From assembly GCA_015143295.1 (NCBI GenBank), contig CM026563.1, positions 2,542,001 through 2,606,000 on the forward strand: a stretch of DNA of 64,000 bases. Reading direction: 5' to 3'. This DNA is from Tetracentron sinense (Eukaryota; Streptophyta; Magnoliopsida; Trochodendrales; Trochodendraceae). Below are positions 11,101-38,128 of the stretch, in pieces (position 1 is the first letter of the stretch; each line of letters begins with the position of its first letter). Under the pieces are notes generated by a model that was given only the letters and a program-made list of their open reading frames with translations, was not told where the DNA came from and searched no databases. The translations under genes and the position numbers were made by a program.

Positions 11101-11451
11101 CCCAGTAAAGTCAATGCAGACTCTCACCTTCCCGTTCTTCTTAGGCACAGCCACAACATTGGCTATCCAATCAGGGTACTGCACTTCCTGAATGAACCCA
11201 AACTGGATCAGCTTGTCAATCTCCTCATTTACTGCATCATGATAAGCTGGAGCAAGCCTCCGAGGTTTCTGCTTCACTGGAGGGATGGCAGGATCAGCAT
11301 TGAGGTGGTGGCAGATAACACCCGGATCGATGCCAGTCATGTTTTTGTGAGACCATGCAAAGACATCAAGATTCTGCCTAAGAAAACTCAGCAACTCGAA
11401 CTCCTCCTCTGTAAGACTGGTTGATAGCATCCGTGAAAGGAGAGTTCTCAA
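8185..11451 (-). CDS. pol block: RT, RNase H, archaeal-type RNase H, integrase
   Basis: One long minus-strand frame of 1088 codons. In order: a reverse transcriptase with the KKNGKVRVCIDF, FMDGYSGYNQI and YIDDIV blocks (YIDDIV near plus-strand 10801-10821); a gypsy-type RNase H region; an archaeal-type RNase H (YVDGSSNFSGSGLG, NNEAEYEAL, DSQLVVNQVNG, RHADALAYLA); an integrase with an HHCC zinc-binding module (CSQCQRF) and catalytic-core blocks (LDIVGPF, IVTDNGKQF, GLAEAANKN); and a C-terminal NWEGPYIV block. A dual RNase H is diagnostic of Tat. No protease was recognised at its N-terminal side. Confidence 0.92.
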   Translation of the reverse strand: MRTLLSRMLSTSLTEEEFELLSFLRQNLDVFAWSHKNMTGIDPGVICHHLNADPAIPPVKQKPRRLAPAYHDAVNEEIDKLIQFGFIQEVQYPDWIANVVAVPKKNGKVRVCIDFTGVNKACPKDFFLMPRIDRLINATAGHEMLSFMDGYSGYNQILLAEADREKTTFITERGLFCYRVMPFGLKNAGATYQRLMNLMFGSLLGKTVEVYIDDIVVKSRVRGALVADLAEPFSVLRSFNLKINPEKCTFGVTSGKFLGYLVSQRGIEANPAQIRALLDMPEPKSKKEIQKLTGRIAALNRFISKSSDRCKPLFELLRKDSIFAWTPECSRAFLALKEYLGSAPILSVPEPGEILYLYLSVSEQALGSVLVRSCDGMEKPVYFISKTFLKAESNYSKLEKVCLALVFSAEKLRPYFHAHSVVVITTYPLKVVLGRPELAGRMSKWAVALSEFDIQYRARSSEKGQAMAGFLSDFPVEEEAEDTVVDLRELPIEVDNEDAVVEGAESSEWSGWLLYVDGSSNFSGSGLGVVLVSPDNIKVQKMSRLGFTASNNEAEYEALLLGLESARELQISTLRVFCDSQLVVNQVNGVYECKDDRMKQYATLVRSLCETFTVVEIRHTRRDENRHADALAYLASMVQAGEPRAILMEFQEYPSIALQAQREVFFVNPVPSWMTGLVAYLKDGVLPIGVKESRRIQFKASRYTLVQGKLFRKSFGGPLLKCVHPVDVEKILAELHEGICGIHSGGRTIAHRALEQGYFWPYMQADAQKYVKRCSQCQRFARLIHAPTQELSTVSQPWPFARWGLDIVGPFPRAPGNLIFLLVATDYFSRWIEAVPLARIREQEVKKFLWEHIICRFGIPQSIVTDNGKQFSGRLIADFCSELKIKHVFSSPYYPQGNGLAEAANKNILNALKRRLEDSKGKWTTELHNVLWGYRTTPRSPTNETPFSLAYGMEAVIPTEISLPTVRSWHSKKKDGEKDQNTVLMAIHLDLLEEKREDASIQMRRYQQRLRKAYNKKVQRRVLQVGDLVLRRVFQNTRELNSGKLGPNWEGPYIVERLGSPGVCYLKDLQGNLISKSWNIMNLRQFFQ

Positions 11452-12106
11452 CGTTCTCCTTTGCTGACTGAGCGAAGTGGTCAGGAACCCCTCCCTTCAT
11501 GCTCTTAACGCGAGCACCGATTAAAACCTCCACCTCTTTGGCTGTTACCCAAGTCTTCTGGGTGTCTGCACCTCCGGTACCCACTCTCAGGTCCTCTCTA
11601 CCTGCTCCTTCTCTGAAATCCACACGATCCGAAGGGATGCTCTGCTCTGCCCGAACCGGAGGCTGCCTTACATCCCCCTCGGTAGGAAGAAGCACAAACC
11701 TGGTCTCACGGTTCTCCGGGGCAGAAGGAGAAGAAGAGAAGTCAAACTGACGTCTCAAGGAAGGCCTCTGCAGTGGCACCTCCTCCACCTCGAGCCTGCT
11801 ATGCTCGAACGCCTCCAGCCTCGCTTGCATCAACTGTTGCTGCCTGGTGATTTGATCCAGAACAGACTGCTGCAGTTGCAGCATCGCCAAGACGCGATCT
11901 GAAACAGAGAGTTCAGCAGGGGAAGGTACGGTCCTTTCTGGTTGTCCAGGCGGAGGACTGGCTCCAGGAATGTGCACGACAGAGGGTACGAAAGAAGTGG
12001 AATGAGGGGCTTGATCTTCATGCCCGAATATTTCTGACTGATCAGCCATGATCGCAGAGAGCAAAAAAGGGGGGGTCCGTTTATTAATTCCCACAGACGG
12101 CGCCAA
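11378..12106 (-). CDS. gag block of the young Tat element (N-terminal part)
   Basis: A minus-strand frame just inside the primer-binding site. The likely start is the internal MADQSEIFGHE. It is rich in Pro, Ser, Glu and Gln, with a short coiled-coil-like stretch (LQQSVLDQITRQQQLMQARLEAFE). Its position identifies it as gag. I recognise no zinc knuckle. Confidence 0.6.
   Translation of the reverse strand: MAPSVGINKRTPPFLLSAIMADQSEIFGHEDQAPHSTSFVPSVVHIPGASPPPGQPERTVPSPAELSVSDRVLAMLQLQQSVLDQITRQQQLMQARLEAFEHSRLEVEEVPLQRPSLRRQFDFSSSPSAPENRETRFVLLPTEGDVRQPPVRAEQSIPSDRVDFREGAGREDLRVGTGGADTQKTWVTAKEVEVLIGARVKSMKGGVPDHFAQSAKENVENSPFTDAINQSYRGGVRVAEFS
12090..12105 (-). other. primer-binding site of the young Tat element
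   Basis: On the minus strand TGGCGCCGTCTGTGGG follows the 5' LTR after four bases. TGGCGCC.. primer sites are common in plant Gypsy elements, complementary to a tRNA 3' end ending GGCGCCA. I cannot fix the exact tRNA. Confidence 0.6.
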
Positions 12107-12109
12107 TTT

Positions 12110-12995
12110 TGTGAGGGGAAAAAATACCTGACGGACATGCGTCAGCAGCAGCTTCTTCCACGTTCTGGTTTACTGGTAGAAGGTTGGAGCGGAGGGTGTG
12201 GCACCCTGACCTGTACTCCGATGGTAAAGTCAGTAGGGGTAGAAGATGATGAATAGTAAACGCAAGAACAATCACTGAAAAATACGCAAGACACTGAAAG
12301 CCCTGAACACGTCTTCTCGGATCTGGGTTAATGAACAAGTGTTCTGTGCACTAAAAATCACGGGGTTTTTATAGGGCAAGGTTGGTATGGCCATCGATGA
12401 CCATAGATGGCCATAGATGTACATACCACGTGTCTGTGCACTCATTGCCAAACATCTTAGTCACATTTGCCACCGGTTGCATCACACGTGAGTCTCCAAA
12501 AAGTCCAATCGGACGGGATTGGTCGGTACGCAGAAGTGACCAGCATTAAATGCCAAGACAGTGCTTTCGGCGAGTTCGGCACACTTGTCGGAATTATGGA
12601 TCGCCTCCTGATCACTTCCTCCTACGAGCCGGTCTCGTTGTTGACTTAAGCTCGGTTACGACGTAGATGCCTTAAAACACAGCACGACATCGTTGTCAGT
12701 GAGACAACGGACTCGTTGTTCGCGTAACGGCAATCGACGTTGTCAAGAGCACAACGTTCACGTTGTGCTTCAGACAACGAGCTCGTTGTCGAGACCACAA
12801 CGGAAACGTTGTTCTTCGTGAGAACAAAGATGTCGCAATGCGCACAACGGGATCGTTGTACGTCAGACAACGTGTGACCCTTATATTTTAAGCACGTGGC
12901 CCCAACTCGTGAACACGTGTCACTTTCGTGAACAAAACGACAAAAACGAGCTCGTCCCACAACGCTGAGCTGGTACACGAATTTTATCCGTTACA
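12110..12995 (-). repeat. 5' LTR of the young Tat element (886 bp)
   Basis: Matches 3095-3982 with about four substitutions and one 2-bp length difference. It is adjacent to the primer-binding site, so it is the upstream LTR for the minus-strand element. It is flanked at 12996-13000 by the target duplication GTGAT. Confidence 0.92.
12681..12889. repeat. copy of the dyad array in the other LTR
   Basis: The same ACAACG-N4-CGTTGT array is present in the 5' LTR, with the first perfect dyad at 12704. The two arrays appear to differ by a single base. Confidence 0.85.
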
Positions 12996-14836
12996 GTGAT
13001 GTATCACAATAGCGAAACCCTCGAACCCTGTTGAAATTTGTAAACTAAGATAGAAAACTACATATAACGCTTAATGTGTATTGGTGAAGGACTTTCTGAA
13101 AAACCATCATTTGCAGAAGCATTGAAATCCTTGTAGGAGGGCTGCTTTATTTTTTTTTTTTAAAACAAAAGTCAAGAGATTCTATTTCATATGGTGAAGA
13201 GCAAATTATGATTTTTTGTGGTTGAGGTTTACTTTTGCTTCACAAGTATAATTGCATAATTGTTGATAGAAGTAGTTGGAATGCAAAGAATTGATCAGTT
13301 AGCAAGAAATGTATATTACTTTTGGTAGGAAATGCTTATGGGGGTTTGACTTTGCAGTGTTTAGTTGGTGCTATTTCTTGTTAGTGCCATCTCCTTGTTC
13401 TGGCCTTTGGACTCCTCTTTGGTTCTTCCTTTGTGAACCGAAAAAAAGTCTCTCACTCTCTCCCAAGTTATCATTGACCAATGGTCTAAAACTGATATAG
13501 AAAACATATAACTATTTTTACAACCCGGGCCAGATTGTGTGGTCAAACTGAAACCGCCTCCATTGGCAGATTGGTTTGACCCTCTGGCTGGGATATCCCC
13601 AACACCGGACTGGATTGTAGGACCTGGTTCAACTGCCATTCTGCTTGACCCGGGTGGGTTGTAGTGAACCGTCTGAGCCATTTCATTTGTATAAAAGCAG
13701 AGAGCATTTAGGGTTTACTCATATAATATTACTCAGACTAAAAAAGAGGGTAAAGCCCTAATGCTTTTCCTTTGAACTTAATCTCTAAGGTGAGTCTTTT
13801 CTTCTTCTTAGCTCTATATATATATAGAGTAAAAACGAAAAAAAAAAAAAGGTTCCAATTTAAGCAAAGAACAAAGCAAAGTTTTTATGTTCAAAGAAAT
13901 TTCAGAATGGATAGAAAAGAGCTTTATATGTTCAAGATCATAGAGCTCTTACACTGTTACACAGAATAAATAACAATGAAAAACACTTCAAATTGAACAA
14001 AAAAAAGCTTTTTATTTGAAATTTAATGATGAATAACAAATAATTAAAATGAGAAATAAAATAGAGATTAATGTTTTTCAAAATTGGATTCCGTGATAGG
14101 TATCCAATACACAATCATGGTGCTTATACCATTTTCCTCCTATTCCCCATAATTTTTCCTATTAGTCTGATAATTCTTTTATTTCTTCAATAACGTCACT
14201 AAGTTGACCAGATCAATCTGCCAACCGAGCCAGGATGGACCGGTCGCCCTTCTCTACTGTTTGATGTCCGGTCTGGGTTTAAAACATTGGTTAGAATAGT
14301 GCAGATAGTGTTTGGACAAGCTGGTACTCTATAAAGGTTTGAAGGCTAAGAGAGTTTTGGGAGAAGTGGGTGCTAGACTGCGTCTGAGTGTATATAATAT
14401 TTTGAATAGCTAGTTCTGTTTGTAAACTTTTTTGATTGGAGGTGATGTTTGTAAACAACAATTATGAATTATGATATGTGTATAATCAAAACTTAATTTA
14501 GATCAAACAAGAAAATGGCAACATTTGAATGGGCTTGGTTATTGTGCATGTTCTATACACATAGAAGAAAGTGTATTCTTCCAATTGACTTGGACTTGAT
14601 CTCCTTAGTTCCAGTTATTTAAAAAGAATCTTGGATTATATGCCTAAATTTTACATACAGCAATCGCATTATGCATGACTCATCTGTCAACTTTTTATCA
14701 AATCACATTTTCCTTATATTGTTCACTGCTTAATCATTTTAATCTTTGGTTCTCTGTTTCTTTTTTCTTTTATTGAAAAAACAATATGAACAGTTCTTTC
14801 GTATATTCTGAATTTGTGTTCAATTTGGAAAGAACT

Positions 14837-15158
14837 TAATCCTTTTTTTTTAATTAGTAACCATCAAAATTATATATATGAAGAGAAAAAGTATTAACAT
14901 AAGACATATACAGGGAGTTTTTTGAGCAGGAAATTTAAAAGGGAGGAAAGCATTTAAAGACAGGCCTATCTATTACATATGTCCCATAAAAGCTGGGTTT
15001 AATCTTTTTTTATTTCATCGGTAACCATCAAAATTATATATATGAAGAGAAAAAGTAACAACATAGGACATATACAAAATTTTATTGAGCATAAACTCAA
15101 AAGGGAGGAAAGCATATAAAGACAGGTCTATCTATTGCATATATCCCGTAAACGGAAG
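14837..15158. repeat. tandem duplication, two ~162-bp units
   Basis: Units 14837-14998 and 14999-15158 share blocks AACCATCAAAATTATATATA, GAAGAGAAAAAGTA, GGGAGGAAAGCAT and CTATCTATT, at roughly 80-85% identity by eye. Confidence 0.8.
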
Positions 15159-15239
15159 CGGGGGAAAGGTGTCGCTTTTCTCGCAATTCTTACCTAAGAA
15201 ACTCACCCAAGTACTTATTTCCTTGCGTATAGAACATCA

Positions 15240-15620
15240 TTAGGAAAGAACTTAATCTTAGGATTGGTAGCATGGAAATAAAAATCGTCGAAATCGATAT
15301 GAAACGGGCGATACATATAGGCATCGGTAGTCTCCTATACGATATTTATACTGATACGAAACGGACGATACATATCGTTTATTAGTTATTCATGTTTTCA
15401 TCATTCTGTAATTGTAATTTTGTTTGCTACTTTGTTTTTGAGTCGCTTCTCATGACTTTATATTTGGTTCTTATAACTCATTTGATATTTTAAAATTTAA
15501 TTTGATTTGATTTTTAATTTTTGCTTAAAAAAGAAAATCTTATATGTATCGCCCGAAACCGATACGTATAGGTTTTGGTTGGGATCGATACATCCCCCGA
15601 AACCGAATTTTTAATCCTTG
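15240..15620. mobile_element. foldback repeat with CGATACG motifs
   Basis: The left part (AAACGGGCGATACATATAGG) and the right part in reverse complement (TTTCGGGCGATACATATAAG) match as inverted arms around an AT-rich centre. The outermost GGATTGGTAG/CCTTGATTGG stretches are direct rather than inverted, so the ends are uncertain. Probably a non-autonomous DNA element of unknown family. Confidence 0.4.
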
Positions 15621-16622
15621 ATTGGTAGTTGGTGCTTCTCTTATTTGTTGCCAAAGGAGCACGTATAATGCGTACAATAGGAAGGAATTTGAATCTACGC
15701 TCCTGAATCTGTAAGTTTGGAGGGGACCTTCTCTTCATTGAGAGTGAAAGCATGGGATAGTCTAATATTGAATTCTACAAATTCTGAGAAAATATCCAAC
15801 CATCTTCATCCCTTGGTTTACACAATTGCATGTGCGTGAACCAATTTTGATGTTTTTATGTTATGGATTCATAAAGGCATGGTTGGATTAGGAGTGAGAA
15901 GCTTTTGAGTTTCATACACAGTACTAAGAGGCCAAGAGCAAAAAAAATTAGATGATTAAAAATAGGAAAAGTAGATATGTGTTACCCATAGAGAAATATT
16001 CCAATCAATGATGCTTTTTGTTCCTGAGCTGGAAGTTTTAGCCATAACTTTCTTGGTACATAAGTAAGCTTGCAAAAGGACTGATAGTTACTATAAGAGG
16101 ATCCGCAATTCCAGCAATTGGCTGACTTGTCATGATACAGGACTTCAAACAGAAGCATAGTAGCAGTCCTCATCCCATGGAACCATACAAAGCTACTACT
16201 AGTTTCTTATATTATTGGGAAACCCAAGTCATAAAACTTAATGCATGTATGAAATGATAAATTATAATGTTATCAGCAATAAATTTTGGTGATAAACTTT
16301 TGAATTTATAACCATCCTTTCTCAACTAATGCTTTATCAAACTGTATTAGATCTACTAGAGGGAAGAAAAAATTATAATAGAGAAAAATTGAATTTTGTT
16401 ATGTATTTACTATGGATTCAATAAGAAGAAAGAGATTTAAATCTATCCTTTTACAATATCTATGATCTCATAATCCGAAGGTGAATGTAAACCTAAGGTT
16501 AATCTGCACCTGTTCGATAACATCATTGAAAGAAATTTATTAATTGAGCCACGTTGAACTGAGCAGTGCCAAATCTGAGATGGGAAATGCTTGTCTCAGC
16601 TAGATTTTTTCCAGCCCCATGG

Positions 16623-16729
16623 GGTGCATATGCAAGGCTAGGAAACACCATTCAATTGATCTCCATCTCTGAGATAGGTGCATATGCAAGGCTAGGAAAC
16701 ACCATTCAATTGATCTCCATCTCTGAGAT
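16623..16729. repeat. exact 54-bp tandem duplication
   Basis: Copies at 16623-16676 and 16677-16729 appear identical, starting GGTGCATATGCAAGGC and ending CATCTCTGAGAT. Such identity implies a very recent event, or an assembly artefact. Confidence 0.9.
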
Positions 16730-17393
16730 TTCTTTCACTGAAAGTTGACCTGACCAGATGATTACCTGGGCAGATGATCTTAACTATCCAATCTATTGAT
16801 GGGAAACGTTGTTGAAAAATCCATGTAGTGGTGAATGAGAAATTGACTTGACAAAGAAACCTGATGGCAATCCGATTGACCCAACGAATAGGCAATGTGT
16901 GGGGGTCCGGGGTTGAAGGCCCCGACCGAAATTTGTGACCCAAATTTCGACCCAAACCGGGTCTGGGCCTGGTTTGGGTTTATCCGCTCTGATCCATTCT
17001 TTAAATGGGTTTTCATTGGTGTTTCAAACTTTCAGTAACTGTTTTTCTTTCCATTTTTGTGTCTCTTCCAAACAATCACCTATGTTGGAACAGACACAAG
17101 TCTATAAAGTAGACCTCCATTCCTGCATTCAAGTTATTGGTTTTAAAATCTCTCTCTTCTGCATTGTTATTGGTTCAAGTACAAACATTGGTCGGTTTGC
17201 TGAGTTCTGCAGATTTGCTGAGTTTTGCAGATTGAAGTGTTGCATCTCCAGAACTGAAATCCATTCTATCTTGGGAGACGATTACTCATCAACCTTGAGC
17301 ATCGAGAGGGAGTAAATTCGCCTTAAGGAAACTGTGATTCATAGGGCTCAGATTTGCTATTTCAGTTTGCTGTTAATTCTTAGTACTAATACA

Positions 17394-17730
17394 GTGAGTT
17401 CTTTTTCTGTTTCAGTTTCCTTATTCTTTTATTGGTACATCTATATTCATTAATTATTTTCTGACTAATTAGAACTACAAAATTCTGAAAAGAAAATGGC
17501 TATTGTTCTCGATATAAGTATATACATTGGTCGGTCTTGATTGTCCAATCAAATCAATTATTAGGGTCAGATGCCTCCTGGCGCGAAATGCTTCCACCCT
17601 CTTCTTGAGTGTATCTGATAGTAGAGATAGTCATTAACAAGATCTTTGCCATTTCCTGATTTATAAATCCAATTCTATTACATTATAAGATATTGGATGT
17701 GTGACAATGTCCATGACTGAATATCTGCAG
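17394..17730 (+). other. candidate 5' UTR intron of PHF5A
   Basis: A strong donor (ACA|GTGAGTTC) at 17394 and an acceptor (TATCTGCAG|GG) ending at 17730 bracket a T-rich stretch ending 46 bp before the PHF5A start codon. A 5' UTR intron upstream of an intronless coding region is common in plants. Transcript data are needed to confirm it. Confidence 0.4.
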
Positions 17731-17776
17731 GGCATAGGACATTTTGTGGAACTAAGAAAGTTGTCACTGAAAAAGC

Positions 17777-18109
17777 ATGGCCAAACATCATCCTGATTTA
17801 ATAATGTGCCGGAAGCAGCCGGGAATTGCCATTGGCCGGTTGTGTGAAAAGTGTGACGGGAAGTGTGTGATCTGCGACTCCTATGTGCGTCCTTGCACGC
17901 TTGTGCGGGTCTGCGACGAATGCAACTATGGATCCTTCCAGGGTCGGTGTGTGATTTGTGGAGGGGTGGGGATATCTGATGCCTACTACTGCAAAGAATG
18001 TACTCAGCAGGAGAAAGACAGGGATGGGTGTCCAAAAATTGTCAATTTAGGGAGTGCCAAAACAGATCTCTTTTATGAACGCAAGAAATATGGTTTTAAG
18101 AAAAGATAG
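17777..18109 (+). CDS. PHF5A: PHF5A / SF3b14b, U2 snRNP SF3b subunit
   Basis: An intact single-exon frame encoding 110 residues, the normal length of this extremely conserved eukaryotic family (yeast Rds3). It opens [16 protein letters not shown] and carries the CxxC pairs of the PHD-finger-like zinc knot ([35 protein letters not shown]), ending in the basic KKYGFKKR tail. The protein binds three zinc ions, sits in the SF3b complex of U2 snRNP beside SF3B1, and helps recognise the intron branch point. In plants it also serves as a transcription-related adaptor. The start is supported by the conserved N-terminus. Because the family is nearly invariant and this copy has no defect, it is probably a functional gene and not a retrocopy, though single-exon coding alone cannot exclude a retrocopy. 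Confidence 0.96.
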
Positions 18110-19010
18110 ATGGATATCAAGTAACTTTTACTCTTTCTGGCTTCTATCTTTCCTTAGGTACTATATATGAAGCTAGCAAAACTTTATATAGCTAACAAAA
18201 TTTTAAATAATTGAGTTTGCACTTGTAGACATTGCAAGTGCATTTATGAGGGAAATAGAGGCGTTAACTATATACTTGTGATGGGTAAACTTGGATTATC
18301 TTTGCAGTTTCTTTTTATATGTGAAATTTACCTTCCAAAAAAAAAAAAGTACATGTGAAATTTGATAGATGCAACAGGTTTGACACTTTCGGAGGCTTTA
18401 ATTACTAGAGCCGATACTGCAGTCTAATGTATGTTTTTTTTTTTCTTGGCTCACCCTCATCAGCCCATCTAGTGTTTTGTCTAGTTATTGCGTAAAACTA
18501 ATAATTTAGAAATTTGATGAAGTTCTAGGTGATGAATTTTGGAGGAGAATATTATATTCCTTAATACCTATTAGTGTTTTGACTTTGTACAATATTCTTT
18601 GCTATTTGAAGGTGTTAATCATGGCTTTTGTTTTGGCATCTTAAGTGCATTTTGTTTGTACTTCTAAGAGTCAAAGATCTCATCCCCTTGTAGATTGCCA
18701 TTAGTGCCTAACTCGGATTATATATTTTGTGAACAAGTTCTTTGTATGCTTTTTTGCTTGTGCTTTTTTAAAGCCTGTTAAAGTCATAAATCAGTCCTAA
18801 TAGTGTGCCATTAGTGGCAAATTTCAAAGAATGAGGCTAGGAAACCAATGGTGGTAATAAATATTGTTTATTTTCATTGAAAATGTATGGTTACTAGGTA
18901 AGGGACCATTTTGCATAGTCCATGATGTCTTGGTATCCTTGGATTTCGATAACTTCATTTATCGAAACCTGTCTCCAGATTATCGCACAACAGCAATGGT
19001 GGGTAACTTT
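18110..19010. other. PHF5A 3' flank and intergenic
   Basis: AT-rich sequence with poly(A)/poly(T) runs and no coding signal. The PHF5A 3' UTR must lie in its first few hundred bases, but I see no single decisive polyadenylation signal. Confidence 0.5.
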
Positions 19011-19100
19011 TCTGTAGCTCAATTGGTTGAAAGCTCAATTGGTTGAAATTCAGGATCGCAATCAATGTAGGTCATGGGTTCGACCCTATCCTACCGGTTC
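19011..19100 (+). repeat. tRNA-related SINE-like fragment
   Basis: TGTAGCTCAATTGG (19013-19026) resembles a pol III A box and GGTTCGACCCT (19077-19087) a B box, at SINE/tRNA-like spacing. The A-box phrase AGCTCAATTGGTTGAAA is doubled. It lacks a foldable acceptor stem, so it looks like a SINE head or decayed tRNA and not a working tRNA gene. Confidence 0.5.
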
Positions 19101-19433
19101 GATCCTTCATATCCTTCTTGAAATGTGAAACAATGATTTCATGAGTGGAAATTCAATAGCTATGCACCAAATGAGGTGCAAGAGTGGTGTACAGTACAGG
19201 TCATCCTTGGGTTTCAAATGGTCCAAACAATGTCAACAGTATCTAAAAGAAATCCTCATTCGTTTGTGCCAATAATTTAGTGGCCAAAAAAAAGTCTGAT
19301 GACGTTCAACTCGTATTCAAATAGATACATGCATGACCAGCACATGTCATAAATATAATGCTCATAGAATTATATCACTGTAGACTATTCTACTCATTAA
19401 AGTAAGGGCAATAACCGTCTCCTTGGGCAAGGA

Positions 19434-19937
19434 CGTGTCAATAAGCCGAGCCAGCTCGAGGCTCAGAGTAGAAAAAAAACAAGCTTGAGCATTTATTTTG
19501 GGCTTGTTAAGTCAAGCCGAGCCTTAAAAGTGAGCTCGAAAAATAAACGAGCTGAACAATAGGTGGCTCAGCTTGATTAATTTTATAATAATATCCTTTA
19601 AAAATTAAATTTATATTATATATCTAGTATACATTTTTTTGGTAAAATTTATATAGTATACATTAACATAATTATTTTTGTTTAAGTTTTAACTCAGGCT
19701 TTCACGTGAGTCACATGACATCCCAAAGAAAAAATTGTTATTTTCCTTTTTTAAAATTGAATTTAGTGGTTATCAATGTATTTATATATATATCGAGCCG
19801 AGCCGAGCCGAGCCGAGCTCGAGCTCGAGCTCATGATCTGTGGACGAGCCGAGCCGAGCTCGAGCCTCTATAAAATTCCAACGAGCCCAGCTCGAGCAGT
19901 GCCCAACTTGGCTCAGCTCGGCTCGTTGACACCCCTA
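19434..19937. mobile_element. hAT-like non-autonomous element, CGAGC-rich ends
   Basis: The right end reads GGCTCGTTGACACCCCTA, i.e. TAGGGGTGTCAACGAGCC inverted. The left end reads CGTGTCAATAAGCCGAGC. GCAAGGA flanks both sides (about 19427-19433 and 19938-19944), consistent with a roughly 8-bp hAT duplication. The subterminal parts are runs of CGAGC/GCTCG, probably transposase-binding repeats. No ORF. Confidence 0.5.
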
Positions 19938-22050
19938 GCAAGGAGCACTATTGCTCATTGCTCTCACAAATTCCCGCCCCTTTTAACTATCCTTGAACTA
20001 TGGACTATGGTTAACAAGTTTTAATGCATGTGGTTTTTTATTTTTTAAATTTCTTTCTTAAAATCAAGGTTAAATACTTTAACCCTAAGGCTTTAATGAA
20101 TTTTAATTAAAATTAAAAGAAATTAAAAGGGTACACGTGGCCCAAAAAAAGGGGAAAGAGAAGGGAGAAGATGCCTTCCTCCGCACCAGCAGGGATGAGG
20201 TGATTATTTTAAGTAAAAGCCTACTTGTATGATCTTTGGCTTTTATGGCCAAAAGTCGAGAGGAAGTGAGTATTATTTTAAAACTCGTGTTTGATCCTAA
20301 GGAACCAAAGTTAGAGAGTCATATTTCAATTTATGATACTAAGGAACCAGAGTTAGAGAATCATATTTCAATTTATGATAGGTCAAGAGTTCCATTATGG
20401 TCTTCACAAAGGGAGTCACTTTGGGTGTAAAAGTAAAAGGCGAGCGAAGAGTGTCAAATTTCAATTTAAGATAAGGATGAGAGTGTAATAGTGTCAAATT
20501 TTAATTTACGATAAGATCGAGAGTGCCTCTATCATGTCAGCATTAATCCCTTAGGATTCACTAGACCATACCTAAGTTATAGAAATGATTGATCTTCCAA
20601 TCTTTGATCGAACAATCTATATAAATGTCCAATCAAGTTGATTTTTTGCCACGTGTCTCTTGAGAGTTCCGTCTTATAATCCAATGATTAAATTCCAGAA
20701 CAACCCATTATGTGTCATGTTAGTATGGGCCGCCATTAAAGACTTTAATGAGTATGGAGCATTAAAATGTTACTCTTTCTATATAAACTTGATTGTTCTT
20801 CACATTATTTGTAGATACAAATATATAATTTTCAGTTATTTTTTAAATTATAAGAAATAATTGATAAAATTATTTATCATTCAAATTTGTAACCACAGTA
20901 AACAAAATGATTATTGAGTGCAAGTTCACAAATAATTAACAAGTTCACAAATAATTAACAAATTTTACAGAATTTTGTACCTACAAAAGAAAATGACAAA
21001 ATATTTTCCACTTAACATGCAAAAAATAAAAATTTACATAAAATCTAGCTCTCTAACCCATAAATTGCATAAACAAAAGTTAAAAAGGCGCTCCTAAGGT
21101 TATTTGACTGACAAACCAGGAGTGAGATCGGAGAGGGAGAGTGATTAATTGGCTGGATTCGTAATGCTGATGAGAGTGCAAAAGGTGGGGCCACATAGAC
21201 TCACTACCATCTGATTAGGTGGTCAAAAGAACTGGTTCTGGTGATGAGGTGCCACAACGTATCATCCCATTAAGCACCACGTGGTATGCAGCACAAAGCT
21301 CCATGCTGAGAGCATTCCTAAAAGCCTCTTCAAATTTCAAAAGTTATTTTGAAGAGCCAAAACACTAAAAATGATAAGTTGCCTCTTCAAAATTCTTCAA
21401 AATAATCATTTAGGTTTGGTTAGATAGTTACTGCACACTCACCAAACCAAATCTTTATCTCTCCTTTCTTTTTTTGTGGTTCCACACAAATAACAAAATA
21501 ATATTTTTCTCTCCCATCTTTTATTGTGGTACCACGTCACTTCCATACAAATAAATAAGGGAAATAATTAACGTACCTGAGAAATGGATTTTAAAATCCA
21601 AGGATGAACCTCAGTAGTCTATGCCCCTCTCTTAAATACCCACCAATTAATCCATTTCCCAGGGCTCAATAAATAAATAATGTTTCTTTTTTCCTTTTTT
21701 TTATTGTGGTCCCACACAATTAATAAAATAATGATTCTCTCTTCTTTTGTCTTGTTAAATTTGGTGAGACGGTTGAGAGTGTTTAAAAAACAGTGGATAG
21801 CCAAAATTGAGAGGAACAAAAAAAAAAAAAAAAAAAAGGGTTTGGTGAGTAAAATTTGGTGAGGCCGGTAGGAATGCTCTTACGAAATTATAATAAAGAA
21901 AAATGATTGCAACTCGGGAAATACGGGCAAAATAAACGACTTCAAAAGGTTGACAAAAAAAGAAGGGTCAGATGCACTCGGTAGAGAGAGTATTCATATA
22001 CGGAACGAAGCAAAGCACTCACGATTTTAGTCAACTCTTTCATCTAATCT
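19938..22050. other. intergenic with repeat debris
   Basis: No gene. Contains a foldback remnant (about 19940-20220) with the TTAACC/GTACACGTGG module, a 48-bp tandem duplication around 20289-20383 (CATATTTCAATTTATGAT shared), a short direct repeat (AAGTTCACAAATAATTAAC near 20920-20960), and a diverged relative of the MITE pair at 55939-56836 (about 21311-21880, ends GAGCATTCCT / AGGAATGCTC). Confidence 0.5.
21311..21880. mobile_element. PIF/Harbinger-like MITE, diverged copy
   Basis: Starts GAGCATTCCTAAAAGCCTC and ends GAGGCCGGTAGGAATGCTC. It shares the ATTGTGG..CACACAA and CTCACCAAA blocks with the two MITEs in the asparagine synthetase intron. It is longer than those and seems internally rearranged, with a poly(A) run. 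Confidence 0.5.
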
Positions 22051-22058
22051 GTTGATGC

Positions 22059-22064
22059 CACGTG
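22059..22064. promoter_or_regulatory. G-box upstream of the PSY gene
   Basis: CACGTG lies 23 bp upstream of the TATA box of the PSY-type gene. A TTGAC core (inverted, in AGTCAACT) sits about 30 bp further upstream. Regulation by bZIP/bHLH and WRKY factors is inference only. Confidence 0.35.
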
Positions 22065-22086
22065 TAATATGCAATAAAGCGCCTGT

Positions 22087-22094
22087 TATAAATA
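22087..22094 (+). promoter_or_regulatory. TATA box of the PSY gene
   Basis: TATAAATA lies 97 bp upstream of the ATG at 22191, leaving a short leader, as expected for a small plant gene. Confidence 0.6.
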
Positions 22095-22190
22095 GACGCA
22101 ATGGTCTCTGGTTGTCTATCCACATCGAGTGTCACGAGAGAAAACAGCGATCAGAGCTGACTTGTTTAGAGAAAGAAAGTAAAGAGAGAG

Positions 22191-22282
22191 ATGGGCATGG
22201 CTGTTGGGTTTCGGCTTTGGTGCTGCCTCTTCTTTGCCTTTGCCATAATCTGCTCCGCTCGAAACACCATTTCATTTTCAGG

Positions 22283-22343
<61 letters not shown>

Positions 22344-22949
22344 AACAGTGCTTGAGCTTGTAGACTGAGCTACTGCATGCACTACCATCTCCATGGCCCA
22401 GCTTTGTTTGAACGAGCATAAACCTGTGGTGTAATTACACTACAGACGATGAGAAGAAGGAACACCGTTGGATGCGCGTAGAACTGGGATCAAATTAACG
22501 ATAATGAAGTTTTGTATGGCAGTGCATGCAGTACGCCAGCCACTCAGGATGCATGCGCTATGTATCATGTATGCAGCGTGGTTCCTGCAGATTACCACTA
22601 CAGGAGACTTTTTTTTTAACCTACATACTGGTGGATTGGTGGGTGGGTGGGTAGGTGGAGCACCATTTCGGTCATCCATGCCGTCCATATATTCAATTGG
22701 ACGGTCTATATATAGTGGCCCCACACCAATTGGATTAGTGGGACTTGATTGGAAACTTTTGAGAGTTGTAAAATTATTGAAAAGCTCATTTTCCATGCAA
22801 TGTTTGTGACAGGAAATGAAATGATGGAGATGGTGGAGGAGAGGTTTCTGGGGGCGAGAACGGACGACTACAATGAGCCGTCTGCGAATCCAGGGCACGA
22901 ACCCAAGAAGGGCAGTGGTGGTCGGAAGACCCAAGACACTACTCCTTGA
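22191..22949 (+). CDS. PSY: PSY-family sulfated peptide hormone precursor (two exons)
   Basis: Exons 22191-22281 and 22813-22949 give a 75-codon precursor. The first ~23 residues form a secretion signal (hydrophobic core CCLFFAFAII, likely cleavage after CSA). The C-terminal third holds DDYNEPSANPGHEPKKG, which aligns with Arabidopsis PSY1 (DYGDPSANPKHDP) at the Asp-Tyr sulfation site, PSANP and the HxP positions. PSY1 precursor is also 75 residues. PSY peptides are secreted, Tyr-sulfated by TPST, and sensed by leucine-rich-repeat receptor kinases that balance growth and stress. The intron (22282-22812) keeps frame (phase 1). The donor GTTCCT is weak beyond the GT and leads into a CT/TA microsatellite, while the acceptor TTGTGACAG is good. 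Reading through the donor stops within the repeat, so splicing is required. The exact donor is the least certain point. Confidence 0.82.
22285..22339. repeat. (CT)n(TA)n microsatellite at the PSY intron start
   Basis: A CT run of roughly 25 bp passes directly into a TA run of roughly 27 bp, starting a few bases inside the intron donor of the PSY gene. Length change here could affect splicing. Confidence 0.9.
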
Positions 22950-23644
22950 CTCTTTTACATTTGGTGCACCCAATTATCATCTACTACAACTATGCTGCTG
23001 CTGCTAGGAAACCCAAATAAAGATGAGGCGTTCTATCCTTATTCTCGTGCATTTTCTACTCTCCGCCAAAAATTAACACATGTCCTAGCTGGTTTTTCGT
23101 TGTTAGTAAGAAATGTCTGAGAATATGGCTAGCACGCCTTTAATAAGGAAAGGGAGATGTCCTCTCGTATTGGATCGTAATGAGCTATTTGTTACTGTCA
23201 TAATGTGCTGACGTTTCTATATATGTGTTTTTTGTTTGTTTGTTAAGATTTGTGTTTGTAGCTGTGTGTGTGTGAGAGACTGTGAGTGAGTGGTGGTGTG
23301 TGTGTTTCCTTTCGTTGGGCTTACAGATTCGCCTTGTGGTGGTGTTGTGTTGAAAAAAAAAAAAAAAAACATATATTCTCTGGCATTGAAAATATAAGAA
23401 TTTGTGCGTAAGATTTGAGGGATGTTTTAGAAATGCTAGTGAGGGATTGCAAAAGTTAGCGCGTTTCTTGAATCAACTTAACTGGACTGGCTCTGCCGTG
23501 AGTTTTTCTTTTCTTTTTTGTTTGTTAAATAGCAAGCCGATAGGCTGCAACCCCATTTAGCTTGGTTAGTATCTTTTATCTCTGTGTGGTCTTGGAGTAT
23601 GTGGCCTTTGGGTTCGGGGACATATCCTCCCATGATTTCTTTTT
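22950..23644. other. PSY 3' flank with a retroposon-like tail
   Basis: No ORF of note. The AATAAA-like CCCAAATAAAGATG near 23010 could be the PSY polyadenylation signal. A GT-rich stretch with ATTCGCCTTGTGGTGGTG and a ~17-base A run (about 23220-23370) resembles two other copies in this window. Confidence 0.45.
23220..23370 (+). repeat. poly(A)-tailed retroposon-like repeat
   Basis: A GTGTGTGT-rich stretch is followed by TTCGCCTTGTGGTGG and a 17-base A run. Related copies lie at about 28395-28535 and, inverted with its own 20+ base tail, at about 50560-50706. A shared 3' end plus poly(A) suggests a SINE or LINE 3' fragment. The family is not identified. Confidence 0.4.
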
Positions 23645-24095
23645 GGGAAATAGTTAACGTACCCGTGGTTCTCAAAATGGCCTGTCCTGATCGGTCCATG
23701 TCCCATTTTAAATACTCACCAACTTTGGTTAAGATTCACCCGTGTTAAGCAATCTAACCATGGTTTTTCAAAAAAAAAAAACTCAAAATCTTAGTTTTAA
23801 TTTTGTTAAGCTTAACTAGGGTTAAAGTGGTGTTAAAAGGGACACGAGGACACGGGGTAACAAGAATAATAAATAGCAAGGATTAGCGTACCCCTCGGTG
23901 TGTTATCTAACGTACCGCTCTGTCCTCATGTCCCTTTAACACCCCTTTAACCCTGGTTAAGTTTAACTAAATTAAAGTTTTTTAATTTTTTCCCCAAAAA
24001 ACCAAAGTTTGATTGTTTAATCCTAGGAATGAGTGAATCTTAACCACAGTTAATGAATGTTACAAAGTGAGGTGTGGACCAATGAGATCCCTCAT
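23645..24095. mobile_element. foldback element with GGACCAATGAGATC arms
   Basis: The left arm (GATCGGTCCATGTCCCATTTT..CACCAACTTTGGTTAAGATTCACCC) pairs with the right arm in reverse complement (CTCATTGGTCCACACCTCACTTTG..TTAACTGTGGTTAAGATTCACTC) over about 220 bp, at roughly 75% identity. It has no ORF and includes the TTAACC..GGGACACGAGG module. Confidence 0.6.
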
Positions 24096-24132
24096 TTCGT
24101 TACATAGTGGCAACGGGAGCAAGTTAAACATT

Positions 24133-25473
24133 GGGTAAATTACACTCACCTCCCCTAAGGTTTGGTGAAATTTCAGAAACCTCCCCTCTTGTTTATGAAA
24201 TTACACTAACCTCCCCTTAACTTTGGTTTCTGTAACAGAAATCGCCTTCCGTTAGTTGATCGTTAATTTCATGGATGAGCTTTGATGATGTCAATCATTT
24301 AAACATTTTAAAATATCTAAATTACCATTTACAAAGTCAACTATTATTATGAAATAAATGGAATTGAGTTTAGTAAGGTTAGTAGCATCAACTTAAGGTT
24401 AATATATATTTCCAAAACCAAGGTTAATAGTATCCACTTAAGGTAAATATATATTCTTTTTATAAGAACTAATGTTAGATAGATAAACTCTAGGGGTAAA
24501 TGAATCTTAACCATAATTAGGGGGTCTTAAAAGAAACACGTGGTGGTTTATAGAGACAATTTAATTGAGGTTAAATATAATTAACCTAAGGTTAATATTT
24601 TTTATTTTTTCTTAAAACTAAGGTTAAATGGATAAATCCTAAGGGTGAGTGAATCTTAACCACAATTAGTGGGTGTTAAAGGGAACACGTGGTGGCTTAT
24701 AGAGCCCACTTTAATTGTGGTTAAGCATAATCGACTTAAGTATTTTTTTTCTTCTAAAAACCAAGCTTAGATGGATGAATCCTTGGGGTGAGTAAATCTT
24801 AACCATAGTTAGTGGGTGTTAAAGAAGACACGTGACGACTTGTAGCGCCCCCTTTAATTGTGGTTAAGCATAATCAACCTAAGTTTTTTTTTCTTTCTAA
24901 GAACCAAATGTTAGATGGATGAACCTTGGTGTGAGTGAATCTTAACCATAGTTAGTAGGTGTTAAAAAGGACAAGTGGCGGCCATTAGAGATCCTTTAAC
25001 CGTGGTTAAACATAATTAACCTATGATTAATATTTTTATTCTTATTTTCTTAAAACCAGATGAATCCTACGGGTGAGTGAGTCTTAACCACAGTTAATGG
25101 GTGTTAAAAGGGACACGTGGTGGCTTGTAGAGCCCCCTTTTATTGTGGTTAAGCATAATCAACCTAAGGTTATTTTTTCTCTAAAAAATTAAGGTTAGAT
25201 GGATAAACCTTGAGGGAGAGTTAATCTTAATCATAGTTAATAGGTGTTAAGGGGACATGTGCGGCTTGAGACGTTTATGTGTTTTTTTAGTTGAGTTTTC
25301 AAACTAAATAAGCTTACGTGTTTCTTCCAAGTAATAAGGGTAAAAATGGAAAATAATATCATTAGTTAATGGAGTTAATAGGATGAGTCTGGAGGTTAGT
25401 GTAATTTCAGAAACAAGAGGGGGAGGTTTCTGAAATTACACCAAACCTAAGGGGAGGTGAGTGTAATTTACCC
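24133..25473. mobile_element. Mutator-like TIR element, 1.34 kb, non-autonomous
   Basis: Terminal inverted repeats of about 85 bp begin GGGTAAATTACACTCACC at both ends, with only a few mismatches. A perfect 9-bp duplication TTAAACATT flanks it (24124-24132 and 25474-25482), the Mutator signature. The interior carries no transposase. It is filled by about six tandem ~140-bp copies of the GGTGAGTGAATCTTAACC..GGGACACGTGG..GTGGTTAAGCATAATC module. Confidence 0.88.
24480..25270. repeat. ~140-bp tandem array inside the MULE
   Basis: Units share GAATCTTAACCA.AGTTA.TGGGTGTTAAA, GGGACACGTGG.GGCTTGTAGAG and TTAATTGTGGTTAAGCATAAT. ACACGTGG-like phrases recur near 24534, 24683, 24829, 24974, 25117 and 25255, about every 145 bp. 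Confidence 0.8.
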
Positions 25474-25482
25474 TTAAACATT

Positions 25483-26980
25483 TTCCTTATATAAATAAAA
25501 TTAATAATATTTTTATATTATAGATATTGTTTTTTCCCACAAGTATTCCACGTGTGCGCCTCTCCCACTTGACACGTGTACCTTTAACACTCACTGATTT
25601 TGGTTAAGATTCACTGACACCTAGGGTTTATGCATCTAACCTTGGTTTTAAAAAAATTAACTCTGAGTTAATAAATCTTACCTAGGGTTAAAGATAGTTA
25701 AAAGGGACACATGATGCCTAAAGAATCAATAACTTTTTATTATACATATAAAAAAATTTAACAAATTTTAATTGGGGGGGAGCCTCACTGGTTGGGTGAC
25801 CATCTTTTTCTCCCCTCCCAGCGACGTGGTCCTCCACCTAAAGATGACAATCCCACACTCAAGTCAGTCTTCTTGCTCATTGTTATTCCTCTGTAAGGGC
25901 TGAAATTCTTACCTCCTTATCTCTGTTTCCTCCCCTTTCCATCCGGCCCATTTGTCCCTTTTCTTGTCAACGCATCACTAGTTGAGCGGTGGAGATGGTG
26001 AATTGTAGCCTCCAGGCTTTTGTTTCGTTAGTAGCTTGCGATGTTAGATTGATTGATGGGAACAAAAAAAATAAAAATAAAGTGTTTGATGCGTATTTTG
26101 ATGTGATAAATATGGCACTACGACTCCACTTTCTAGACAGGGATAACATTTCTACTCATCACACATTAGTTCCTGATATTCGGCCCAACTCGGGAAAGAA
26201 TAGCACTAAAGGAGTCTCGGCCAAGGGGATATTTAAGCACGTCAACTGGAGGGGTCATCTTACATCTTGATCAAGTGAGGGTTAACCGAGCTTAATGCCT
26301 CAGAGATTTCTTCCCCTTACATTTTCTATGCATATTTCCTATCGCTCCCCTAAAATCTCTTATTGGCCAAATGAGACTATGAACCTATGACCACTGCGTT
26401 TCTATCTTAACCTAACATCATATAAGGCATGTTAAATGCGAGTCTAAAATTTTTTATTCAATATTAATAACAATTACAATCCATATTGAAATTAACTAAA
26501 ATTCAACCCTTATATGTAGGGGCGGAGCCTTGATTTTTTAGTACTGGGGCACAAAGTGATTCATTCAAAATGATAATAATTGTTGATGTATTTGTAGAGA
26601 TTTATAAGGCTAAGTGATGAAATACTCTGGTTCTAAGGCATAGCCCCCGTCTTGTTTTTTGTTTGTTTTTTTTTGTGATGACCAAGTCCTTGGTCATTTC
26701 ATCCTTACATTTCATATATATCTTAATTATAGGTATTGTTTATCCTCGCTTACGAGACAATTGTCTCCCCTCCTTTATAACTATGCCCTATTAAATAATT
26801 TGATGACATGATAATTAAAGATGACTTCTGTTTTCAAAAGTTCAGGGACAGTTATCCTCTTGCCTCATGGCTATGTCGTTTTAAATAATTAAACGATAAA
26901 GTATAATTTGTTAGGGGCAACTAGCCCTTGTCCATGATTATGCAACATGTGTCCCTTTGAACATCATTTAATTGTAACCC
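25483..26980. other. intergenic, no gene seen
   Basis: The first 250 bp contain another TTAACC..GGGACACATG foldback remnant. A 93-residue open frame at 25989-26270 has no recognisable domain and is probably chance. GGGGCGGAGCC (26519) is a phrase seen again at 49974 and, diverged, at 57551, suggesting termini of another repeat family. Confidence 0.5.
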
Positions 26981-27065
26981 CTGCGGTGTAGCCTAGTTGC
27001 CGAAGGACAAACCTTAAACCTAGGAGTCTCGAGGTTGATTCTTGGCTCCCCACAATATTGGTTGA
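26980..27065 (+). repeat. tRNA-related SINE-like fragment
   Basis: TGTAGCCTAGTTGCCGAAGG resembles a pol III A box, and GAGGTTGATTCTTGG, about 45 bp further, resembles a B box. A second SINE-like head in the window, at 19011-19100, is related only in these boxes. Confidence 0.4.
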
Positions 27066-27930
27066 ATGGGTGGAGTATTCCCTATTCAGTACATGGGACT
27101 AGTCTGAGTCTTTAAGACTCAGTTGGTGAGTATTTAAAAGGGAGGTGCTGGACCAATGAGATCCACCCTTAGGTTTCTAAATGAATTTCATGGGTACGAC
27201 TATCACTGCTTTTTTAAATTTAACCAAAATTCAATCAACTTTTGAATCAAGGAAAAGATAGTTTTAAAATTAATGAAACTTCAATCAACATTTTGAAGAA
27301 CCCGACTACCTTTTGATCTATATAAAAGAAAAAATTACAAACGTGCACACACTACTTTAATACACATAAAAGACAAATCTTACGACACAACACGTCAATC
27401 GGTTATAGTTCAGAGATTAAAAGAAGAGTCTTCATATATGCCGGAGATCTGCTTCACCAGGTTGGAGCAGAGCTTCCTTTTCTATAAATCCCATGACAGC
27501 TATGTAATTATGAGAATACAAAAATACTCTTGTCTTTATTTATAATTACAAAATTGCTTCCTAACATTGCACGCAAATGAGGAGCTTTGCTTGATGCACT
27601 GAAGCAGAGCTCCGGCTCATATTTAAACACTTGAAAGAAAGGAGCTCCGGTGGAACAGTAACTGGAGCAACACAAATAAGGCCTTAGGAGTGATAGTTTG
27701 GTAATTACAAACACAAAGAAGATAATTTTAGCACTAATTTTTCTTATAAATTACCATTCCCAAAGCATTTAGTTTTGGGTTGTGGTTGAGACCCTGGTCA
27801 TAGTTAATCCCTGTCATGTAATGTAGGGACACCAAAATGTACTATCGGCATTAATTGGTTATTTTTATCAGATTTTTGCTTACGACTAAGGGTGATAATT
27901 TTTTTGTTGGAGCCGAGGACAGGTTGGCGA

Positions 27931-28110
27931 AGGAAAATAGTTAACATACTTGGGATCTCCATTTGCAAAGATAAGGCTAGTCCTCATTGGTCCATGCTTC
28001 ACTTTGAAATTTTCACCACAGTCGGTGAGTATTTAAGAGTGATGACGTGGACCAATGAGAACTAACCTTAACCTTGCAAATGGAGATCCCCGGTACACCT
28101 ATCACTACTC
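27931..28110. mobile_element. small foldback, GGGATCTCCATTTGCAA arms
   Basis: The left arm CTTGGGATCTCCATTTGCAA and the right arm TTGCAAATGGAGATCCCCGG pair closely and extend through a shared CTCATTGGTCCA block for about 85 bp each. The same GGAAATAGTTAACGTACC start occurs at 23644 and, diverged, at 21560 and 30475. Confidence 0.65.
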
Positions 28111-28124
28111 ATTAACGAATAAGG

Positions 28125-28690
28125 TTCTCGTGAGTGAGCAGGTCAAGCTCGGGTATTTAATACCTGAGTCAAGTTTGAGATCATATAGATAACAAGTCGA
28201 ACACTCCCATACTCGGCTCACCTAGATTATATACATACTTATAATATTTTTAAATTACAAAATATTCAAGTTAAGTACATAATTTACATTGGTGTTGTTA
28301 CCTTAACCAAAAAAATCTATCAATTCTCTTAGTCTCACATTGGTTGTGTAACCGAGCTCTCATCCCCTTATAAGTTACATCACGCCTCAAACGGTTGGTA
28401 CCCGTTTTGAGGAGTGTTTGGGTGAAACTTATTTGGGTTGAGGGTGTGTGATGTATGTGTGTTTGTGTGTGTGGTCTTCTTTCTCATGACTGTAGCTTCG
28501 CCTTGTGGTGTTGTTACCTTAACCATAAAAAGTACATAACTTACATACTTAAGGGGCAAAAAAGGAAATACAATTCTTTAAGCCTCCAAGCTTGTTGCAC
28601 TAGGTTACTTCGTGTAAAAGTTATGGACTAAGGTAGTGAATTTAAATGAATTCTGACTCATTAAAGAGTTATTTTTTAAACTAATAATAT

Positions 28691-28729
<39 letters not shown>

Positions 28730-28870
28730 TTATTTTTTAAATTAATATTTTAATTGAGCTCTCGAACTCTATTTTCCTCGTTTATAAACGAGCCAAGCGA
28801 AGGTTGAACAGATTTAAATAATTACATAACTCCATAGAACCTCAGCTCGATACTCAACCCTACTTCTAGC
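28125..28870. mobile_element. CGAGC-type repeat, probable hAT-like, nested
   Basis: AGCTCGGGTATTTAATACCTGAGTC near the left and AACCTCAGCTCGATACTCAACCC near the right resemble the CGAGC-rich ends at 19434-19937. Inside lie a GT-rich retroposon-like copy (28395-28535) and a (TA)n run (28689-28729). Boundaries are approximate. Confidence 0.35.
28395..28535 (+). repeat. retroposon-like GT-rich repeat copy
   Basis: TGAGGAGTGTTTGGGTGAA..GGTTGAGGGTGTGTGATG..GTAGCTTCGCCTTGTGGTG parallels the copies at 23220-23370 and (inverted) 50560-50706. GGTGTTGTTACCTTAACCA occurs at both 28294 and 28511, possibly a target duplication around the insertion. Confidence 0.4.
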
Positions 28871-30047
28871 CTAGTATCGACAACGTTTTTTGAGTTTGGA
28901 TCTTATCCGTTGTAATTGAACTCGAGAGAGTTCAATTGCACTCAAAGGGGCCCTTTAACTGTCCTTTTGACTATGGTTTATGATTATATATTTTTTCTAA
29001 AAATCGAAGTTAGATTGTCAAACCATAAGGGTGAATGAATCTTAACCACAATTACTAAGGGTTAAAAGGGACAAATGTTGATTGTGGGATGATCCGAACT
29101 CATATTTTCAATTGATACGGGATCATCTCCAATTGGTGTTGGCGGTCTCCCGTGCACCGCAACAAAGGTGTTGGTTTGCATGTAATATCTTGATAAGCAT
29201 GTACAAAGGATATGTGGCACCATCAAAGTGGTGTTGGCGGTCGAGACCGGATCACAACCAATTGTGATTGAACTTGGGGATAGTTTAATTGCAACCATAG
29301 GTCAACACATGTCCCTTTTAATTTCTATTAATTATGGTTAAGATTCAATTTTAGATATATTTTTAAAAATGAATCATTGGGTTAACAATTTTTTAACCCT
29401 AAGGGTAATTTAATATAATCACACTAAAACATGTAGGATAACGCTAGCAAGACTCTCTTTTATAAGGTAGTGGTTGATTAAACTTCTAAACTGAAAAGTC
29501 AAAAGGTTGGGAACACGCGTGTAGTTATTTGGTATGTTTTGACTTCTCAAAAGGCTGCCCAAGGATACTTTTGTGGGAAAGTTACTTGACCGGCGAAGGA
29601 TGTAACGAGCTCTCTCTTATTAAAATAACAAAAGTTACTTCTTAAGAAACGTATACGATTTTAAGAAATTACTTTTTACTTCTCCAAATAAAATTTCGGT
29701 GTCGTTTGGATAGACTTCCCAAACAACTTTTAATTTTTAGGAAGTCAAAAGTTGACAAATTAGTGTTTGGTTTACCATTTTTTATTTGACTTCACACGGA
29801 AGTAAAAAGTCATAAGAATGCAATTTTCTTACTTCCCCAAGAAGCTAAGGAGACTAGCTTCGGCGGGAAGTGGAATTCTCACTTCGGCGGGAAGTTGACG
29901 GAAGAGCCGGCGGAACGATATCCACAAAAATCACTATTCACTTACGTACAACAATCACTATTCACTTGTAAGCTTTTGTAGTATTAAGAAGAAAATTTTG
30001 GACCCACCCACTCAAGTATGGACCAACCACTGATTAGCTTGGATCCT
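28871..30047. other. intergenic with foldback debris
   Basis: Contains ATTGCAATTGG-type foldback pieces (28915-29310), and from about 29695 a GGTGTCGTTTGGATAGACTT stretch that finds an inverted partner (AAGTCTATCCAAACGCCACC) near 32330. If these are paired termini, the elements between are nested inside an older transposon. No gene is seen. Confidence 0.4.
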
Positions 30048-36659: not shown

Positions 36660-38086
36660 CTTTAGATGTTTTCCTCAAGGCTCCACACAGTCATGATCAA
36701 GAACAACCCTACCAGGTATGAGAACAGATACCGGTATAGGGATAATAAGAATCTGCAATGGCGCAGAAAATTCTGAAGGCGAGGCCGTTCAAAAAAATAC
36801 CGTTCTTATCATTCTGAGTAAAAAACCAAGTTACAACCCAGAGCATTCGCACCCCCGCCTTTTCCCTGCCGCATCAGCGAAGTATTAACGATTGTAGAAT
36901 AATGGATTGCTATGGCGTTTGGGTACTACCCCACCATTCCAAAAGCCTACCGAAGAAGACAAACAAACAGCAATACTGTGTTATCACAAACTATACGCCA
37001 TTTCACAAAAATGTTTCGTCTTCTCTCTAAGGCGGATTTTTAATGACAACTAACCCGCTGGACCCCTAAATTCAGACTACTCCTTAAGGATCTGTCCATC
37101 AGGATCCTTTGCTTACTCATAACGTGAGATGTGGTGGCTATGTTTTGCATAGATTTCAGCATTTTACGAGAAAACGAATTAAGAGGAAATTATCCCTAAT
37201 GATACCTCAGCAATAGAAACTCTTTCACAAGTTCAAAGTTTAAAAACTTCTTTAGAAACCATATCATTTCATCAAAAGCGTCAAGAATCCTGCACCAGCG
37301 GCTTTTGGCCGACATCACAAGAAAACCATTCATACATTGCTTTCTTGCCTATTCTGCTACAAGAAAAGCAATGCCGGAAATTCAAGATGTAAGTTTCACT
37401 GCTGATGATATGAAAGCTTCATCATTAGCTCACACAAGCCTTTGTATGTTACAGCTTAATAAACTCTATTGAAGCAAAAAGAGCATTGATAGACCCTGGG
37501 TCTTCTTTAAACCTTATCCCATTATCAACAGCAGTAGCATGGGATTAGATCCTTCAAAGATTTCAAAGCAGCCAATAAGAAATATCGGGATTTGGAGGAC
37601 AGTGCCAGAACACTATTGGCTATGCTACTAATTAAGCTTCAAGTGGGGCCAATAAATTCAGCAATAAGAGTCCATGTTATTGAAGCCAATGTAAGCTATC
37701 ATATTCTTCTTGGCCGCCCTTGGATTCACAAGTTCCAGCTAATACCATCAACATTTCATCAATGTGTTAAAGGAATATACAAAGGGAAAGTCATCAGAAT
37801 ACTAGCAACTGCCACACCATTTGATAAAGCCGAAGCTCATATTTCAGAGGCATTGTTTTATGATGAGTTGGTTGAAGAAGGTGAAACCGCTTTTGAAAAG
37901 GCCAAAGGAGTTATGCCACCATCATCCACTATTTTAACGCCATCAGAGACTTCAAAGGCCTCAAAAAGACCCCGAGACGAAAGTGTGAAAACAGAAATTC
38001 CAAGGGGGAATGCTATCAAAGAATCAAGAACTGGGGGCTGTAAGAGGGAGGTACAACCAGATGAAAATGTTGTATATATCTTATGA
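36660..38086 (+). pseudogene. gag end and protease remnant of the old Tat element
   Basis: Decayed gag-like sequence is followed by an aspartic-protease-like region. IDPGSSLNLIP near 37490 and SYHILLGRPWIH near 37695 are the protease core and C-terminal blocks typical of Gypsy elements. A tail rich in Glu/Lys follows. Confidence 0.65.
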
Positions 38087-38128
38087 CAATCAAAGAAAAT
38101 TGATTCATCAAAAGAAAATCAGATTCCC

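Follow-up and report, generated by a model that had tools for sequence, protein, structure and literature searches.

A two-exon locus of Tetracentron sinense that very probably encodes a PSY-type peptide precursor

A first-pass annotation of a 64-kb stretch of Tetracentron sinense DNA (the window) placed a small two-exon gene of the PSY type at positions 22191 to 22949. The question that this locus raises is whether it is a plant gene that codes for the precursor of a PSY peptide (plant peptide containing sulfated tyrosine), and from its sequence we have high confidence that it is. The coordinates and, in essence, the interpretation of the first-pass annotation held on analysis, and the case is built on two exons that recur at four places in the genome, their common splice position and phase, a TATA box kept at three loci, a maintained reading frame, and the core motif of the family. 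Positions are those of the window, and negative numbers lie upstream of its start. We refer to the locus as the C13 gene, to a second copy on C13 as its twin, and to two diverged relatives by C7 and C18. The features of the C13 gene are as follows.

22059 to 22064, plus strand: G-box CACGTG, its first base 132 bp upstream of the ATG; read by eye, identical in the C13 twin
22087 to 22094, plus strand: TATA box TATAAATA; read by eye, conserved in C7; the C18 form is TATAAATG
22191 to 22281, plus strand: exon 1, coding; 91 nt, 30 codons plus one base, ATG at 22191, phase 1 end
22282 to 22812, plus strand: intron, phase 1, GT-AG, 531 bp, donor GTTCCT
22286 to 22339, plus strand: microsatellite, CT followed by TA, close to where the intron begins; that of the twin has 8 bases fewer
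22813 to 22949, plus strand: exon 2, coding plus stop; pro-region, PSY core and tail
22842 to 22853, plus strand: RFLG, which fits the RXLX pattern for subtilase SBT6.1; RSLK in C7 and C18
22866 to 22904, plus strand: PSY core DYNEPSANPGHEP, from the motif scan; Asp-Asp before Tyr, the expected sulfation site
23016 to 23021, plus strand: AATAAA, possible poly(A) signal, beginning 67 bp past the stop; read by eye

Joining the donor GT at 22282 to the acceptor AG at 22811-22812 gives a coding sequence of 228 nt, which is the 75 codons originally proposed plus a stop, and a spliced product of 75 residues, MGMAVGFRLWCCLFFAFAIICSARNTISFSGNEMMEMVEERFLGARTDDYNEPSANPGHEPKKGSGGRKTQDTTP. When donors up to 150 nt past the ATG were paired with acceptors from 22600 to 22900, of the 13 in-frame pairs listed only 22282/22812 retained the hydrophobic start together with the entire exon 2. 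The open frames around the single exons are short (61 aa for exon 1 and 66 aa for exon 2), in agreement with the first description that neither exon alone forms a long ORF, and the gene is easily overlooked because it becomes visible only once the two short exons are joined. The intron had also been described as beginning in a microsatellite. A microsatellite lies near its 5' end, with (CT)14 at 22286-22313 and then TA to 22339, and the intron begins four bases before the (CT)14. Downstream of the C7 gene there is a similar CCCAAATAAAG, comparable to the AATAAA of the C13 gene.

The PSY core DYNEPSANPGHEP occupies residues 49-61 of the C13 protein, towards its C terminus, and exactly matches the family motif DYXXXX[AP]NXXHXP (PMC7913133, section 4.1). 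The motif was found once across the six frames of the window, where the chance expectation per 64 kb is 0.0004 by analytic calculation or 0.003 by simulation (1 match in 24 Mb). Over the whole genome (1.16 Gb), about 8 to 48 chance matches of the motif alone are expected. The motif by itself is therefore weak proof genome-wide, and for this reason its context was tested.

Exon 2, searched against the whole genome (E up to 10), gave four matches. The separate search with exon 1 (E up to 1) also gave four, and these coincided with the four exon 2 places: the C13 gene, the C13 copy 56,851 bp downstream, and the diverged paralogs on C7 and C18. Exon 1 lies upstream of exon 2 on the same strand in all four, and the intron has the same place and phase and GT-AG ends, with lengths across the four copies of 531, 531, 1625, and 289 bp. 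All differences in exon length between loci are multiples of three, and the PSY core is kept in C7, in C18, and in the second C13 copy. Orthologous loci without the core would have spoken against the first-pass annotation; the paralogous loci compared here, all of this genome, have it. This two-exon context, conserved at four places, is the decisive sequence evidence for the gene. The C7 and C18 paralogs, which are older relatives of the C13 pair, are new beyond the first-pass annotation. A search with exon 2 of C18 otherwise returned the same four places; its one additional match, on C8 (46%, E 7.97), was rejected, being without the motif and overlapping a frame that is copia-like by eye. A DNA search with the promoter and exon 1 matched both C13 copies and C7 and missed C18, and a genome search with a 19-residue AtPSY1 query, too short to mean much, gave no match. 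More distant family members may exist, since the genome search scores only the best candidates.

The opposite strand carries the sole ORF of at least 120 aa between 18036 and 37591, which overlaps the gene (22440-22973, 177 aa). If this antisense ORF were the coding signal, the PSY match would be due to chance. However, the corresponding stop-to-stop frame of the twin has 121 residues and a different end, the ORF had no Pfam match at E 0.001, and it is the sense reading that is conserved at three loci. The twin frame, the three-locus conservation, and the exon 1 search all contradict the antisense ORF; we rejected it and give this explanation almost no credence.

The protein predicted from the sense strand has the general layout of a PSY precursor, and it is short and probably disordered. 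Its N terminus, LWCCLFFAFAIICSA, is hydrophobic and by inspection alike in all four copies, and exon 1, already described as a signal-peptide exon, probably does encode a signal peptide, with a putative cut that perhaps falls after CSA (residue 23); both predictions were made by inspection. The pro-region between this signal-like start and the core is acidic and contains the RFLG sequence; RXLX is given as the SBT6.1 pattern in PMC7913133 (section 4.2). The acidic residue that precedes the Tyr, for TPST, is part of DDY in C13 and C18 and of EDY in C7. The precursors of 75 residues (C13) and 76 residues (C7 and C18 each) lie within the 60-200 residues applied as the precursor range to wheat PSY in an excerpt of PMC11641228. 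At the three loci the core is conserved and the pro-region variable, as expected for the family, and the exon of the signal peptide is conserved too. For the C13 protein, a Pfam search returned no families and a PDB sequence search no match; a weak Pfam match of the C18 paralog to Curtovirus V3 (E 0.25, below the cut-off of that family) was taken as chance. Rfam and tRNA scans of the whole window found nothing.

Two upstream elements had been proposed, a TATA box and a G-box. C13, C7, and C18 have the TATA box and portions of the sequence 3' of it in common. The G-box is present at C13 but is not conserved in position: in C7 a CACGTG stands at the start of the aligned stretch, 158 bp before the ATG of that gene, and the G-box is absent from the 138 bp of aligned upstream sequence of C18. 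PMC12642490, examined for such control of PSY promoters, contains none of the terms G-box, bHLH, and bZIP.

A duplication scan of C13:2502001-2666000 (164 kb), which listed matches of at least 500 bp, showed that the C13 gene lies in a duplicated segment, in which blocks between -27640 and 36605 (copy 1) match blocks between 48560 and 91378. At the gene the two copies are offset by the 56,851 bp given above, and the twin proteins are identical. In the detailed alignment (12996-29697), 1-2% of sites differ over much of the length, and several large insertions also set the copies apart. Substituted sites number 104/5884 (1.8%) in the left flank (12996-18995) and 76/6322 (1.2%) in the right flank (23341-29697), or 180/12,206 for both flanks pooled, compared with 4/1453 (0.28%) in the block that contains the gene (21880-23340). 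The Fisher test of the gene block versus the left and right flanks gave p = 1.8e-5, a value that is too favourable because the bounds of the gene block were picked after the profile had been seen; this test excluded a stretch directly upstream of the gene (18996-21879), where 254/2710 sites differ (9.4%) and the alignment is partly doubtful. Two of the four substitutions in the gene block are intronic (22505 and 22543), a third is 304 bp upstream of the ATG, and the fourth is past the stop, at the twin-distinguishing position 23064. The exons and the 300 bp that precede the ATG contain none. The low twin divergence across the gene could reflect gene conversion, mixed haplotypes, or selection acting on the transcription unit. 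The segmental duplication and this low divergence were likewise not part of the first-pass annotation.

Substitution levels of 1.2-1.8% are usual between haplotypes of outcrossing plants. The second C13 copy could thus be the other haplotype, misplaced in tandem by the assembler, which would leave one PSY gene at this place and is compatible with the PSY reading; the two flanks, at 1.2% and 1.8% substitutions, fit such an origin. Several large insertions separate the copies, however, two of them LTR bounded and present in copy 1 alone, no N occurs within the 164 kb examined, and the divergence is uneven, from 0.28 to 9.4%. None of these points against it is decisive, and we regard a misplaced haplotype as possible though rather unlikely.

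The two insertions in copy 1 alone that are bounded by LTR pairs run from -25535 to -14564 (LTRs 97.96% alike) and from 3094 to 12995. The latter is an LTR retrotransposon with the Ty3-type order of domains and LTRs that are 99.3% alike; because it is absent from the twin segment, its insertion probably postdates the separation of the two copies. A second Ty3-type element at 37592-46368 has reverse transcriptase, RNase H, and integrase frames, and near it are minus-strand frames that match families often carried by plant transposons, PEARLI-4 and plant mobile domain. A diverged repeat, about 500-700 bp long and in direct orientation, lies at 24421-25268; its shifts are 147 and 291 bp, and it is present in the twin segment as well.

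Residue identity is 67% between C13 and C7, 68% between C13 and C18, and 75% between C7 and C18. The dN/dS values by NG86 were 0.41 (C13-C7), 0.22 (C13-C18), and 0.32 (C7-C18), and those by YN00 were 0.52 (C13-C7) and 0.23 (C7-C18). All values obtained are below 1 (range, 0.22-0.52), although the ratios are rough because the sequences are short (71-75 codons).

These comparisons bear on whether the C13 locus is a decaying pseudogene, a true relative of the family that is losing its donor beside the microsatellite and is out of use. The C13 donor is weaker than those of its paralogs, an observation that is also new. Pairing with U1 is poorer for GTTCCT than for the GTATAA and GTATAT of the paralogs: the duplex of CAG/GTTCCT has an energy of -5.6 kcal/mol, versus -7.2 kcal/mol for the CAG/GTATA of C7 and C18, and among the 3251 GT sites in the window, 8.5% pair with U1 as well as or better than the C13 donor and 2.8% as well as or better than the C7 and C18 donors. 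Given the weak donor and the adjoining microsatellite, inefficient splicing of the C13 intron is a real possibility. The C13 core also departs from both paralogs at sites that look conserved, with PG in place of RG or RK and HEP in place of HDP. Nevertheless, both C13 copies have an open frame and intact splice dinucleotides, the 300-bp promoter and both exons are free of substitutions between the copies, and dN/dS to the paralogs was estimated at less than 1. We therefore consider a pseudogene very unlikely and prefer the reading of the C13 locus as a protein-coding PSY gene.

Close known relatives of the C13 gene are AtPSY1 (At5g58650) and the PSY family of land plants. The AtPSY1 precursor is listed with 75 aa in an excerpt of PMC11534595, as the first-pass annotation had stated, and the two share this length, the core pattern DY..PSANP.H.P, and an Asp before the sulfated Tyr, for which sulfation is expected in C13; the probable signal peptide of C13 would be a further likeness. 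The RFLG of the C13 protein may be compared with the SBT6.1-type site reported for PSY1-5 in part of PMC7913133. Nine of the 13 core residues are equal, and the other four are N, E, G, and E in C13. The C13 tail is KKGSGGRK in place of GVPPS and is not Pro rich, which leaves no clear C13 counterpart for the modified prolines in the tail of AtPSY1. AtPSY4, for which an excerpt of PMC11534595 lists the peptide DYGEPSANAKHNP and a precursor of 87 aa, shares with C13 a core in which position 4 is Glu and PSAN comes next (-EPSAN-), and its listed peptide is also without a Pro-rich tail; it differs at core positions 3, 9, 10, and 12 and in its precursor length, 87 aa versus 75.

The pattern DY followed by NXXHXP is also common to the MigPSY peptides of root-knot nematodes and the bacterial RaxX mimics, according to parts of PMC10629525 and PMC7913133, whereas the C13 gene lies on a plant chromosome and has paralogs in the same genome; this likeness is one of pattern. 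Reported gene structures in the family vary, with two exons in some PSY genes of wheat (excerpt of PMC11641228), one intron in the nematode mimics (excerpt of PMC10629525), and two or three introns in tobacco PSY genes (excerpt of PMC12153210). The strings PSANPGHEP, PSANPGHDP, DYNDPSAN, and DYNEPSAN were absent from the literature searched, in which the AtPSY1 string or its part PSANPKHDP is present.

If the C13 gene works as known members of the family do, the 75-residue preproprotein would enter the secretory pathway, TPST would sulfate the Tyr in DDY, and subtilases would cut at the DY end and in the pro-region, which has an RXLX site. A peptide starting DYNEPSANPGHEP would then be released to the cell wall, and the candidate sulfated peptide is DYNEPSANPGHEPKKG. 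The predicted receptors of the released peptide are LRR receptor kinases of the PSYR type; by analogy, the peptide might hold down PSYR stress signalling and so tip the balance from stress response to growth (processing and PSYR action as described in excerpts of PMC7913133, PMC10629525, and PMC11534595). A more specific role is conceivable, in which a young tandem PSY pair, its core altered to PG and HEP and its members held similar through selection on the whole transcription unit or gene conversion, would double the dose of a receptor-selective variant; we hold this to be doubtful.

The C13 gene is a real but ordinary further member of the PSY family, and knowledge of the family is unchanged by it. 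Short two-exon hormone precursors of this kind are readily overlooked by gene finders, and a separate search with each exon against its own genome is a cheap and strong test for them. Since PSY peptides govern how growth is balanced against stress response, a correct list of their genes in each species aids comparative work.
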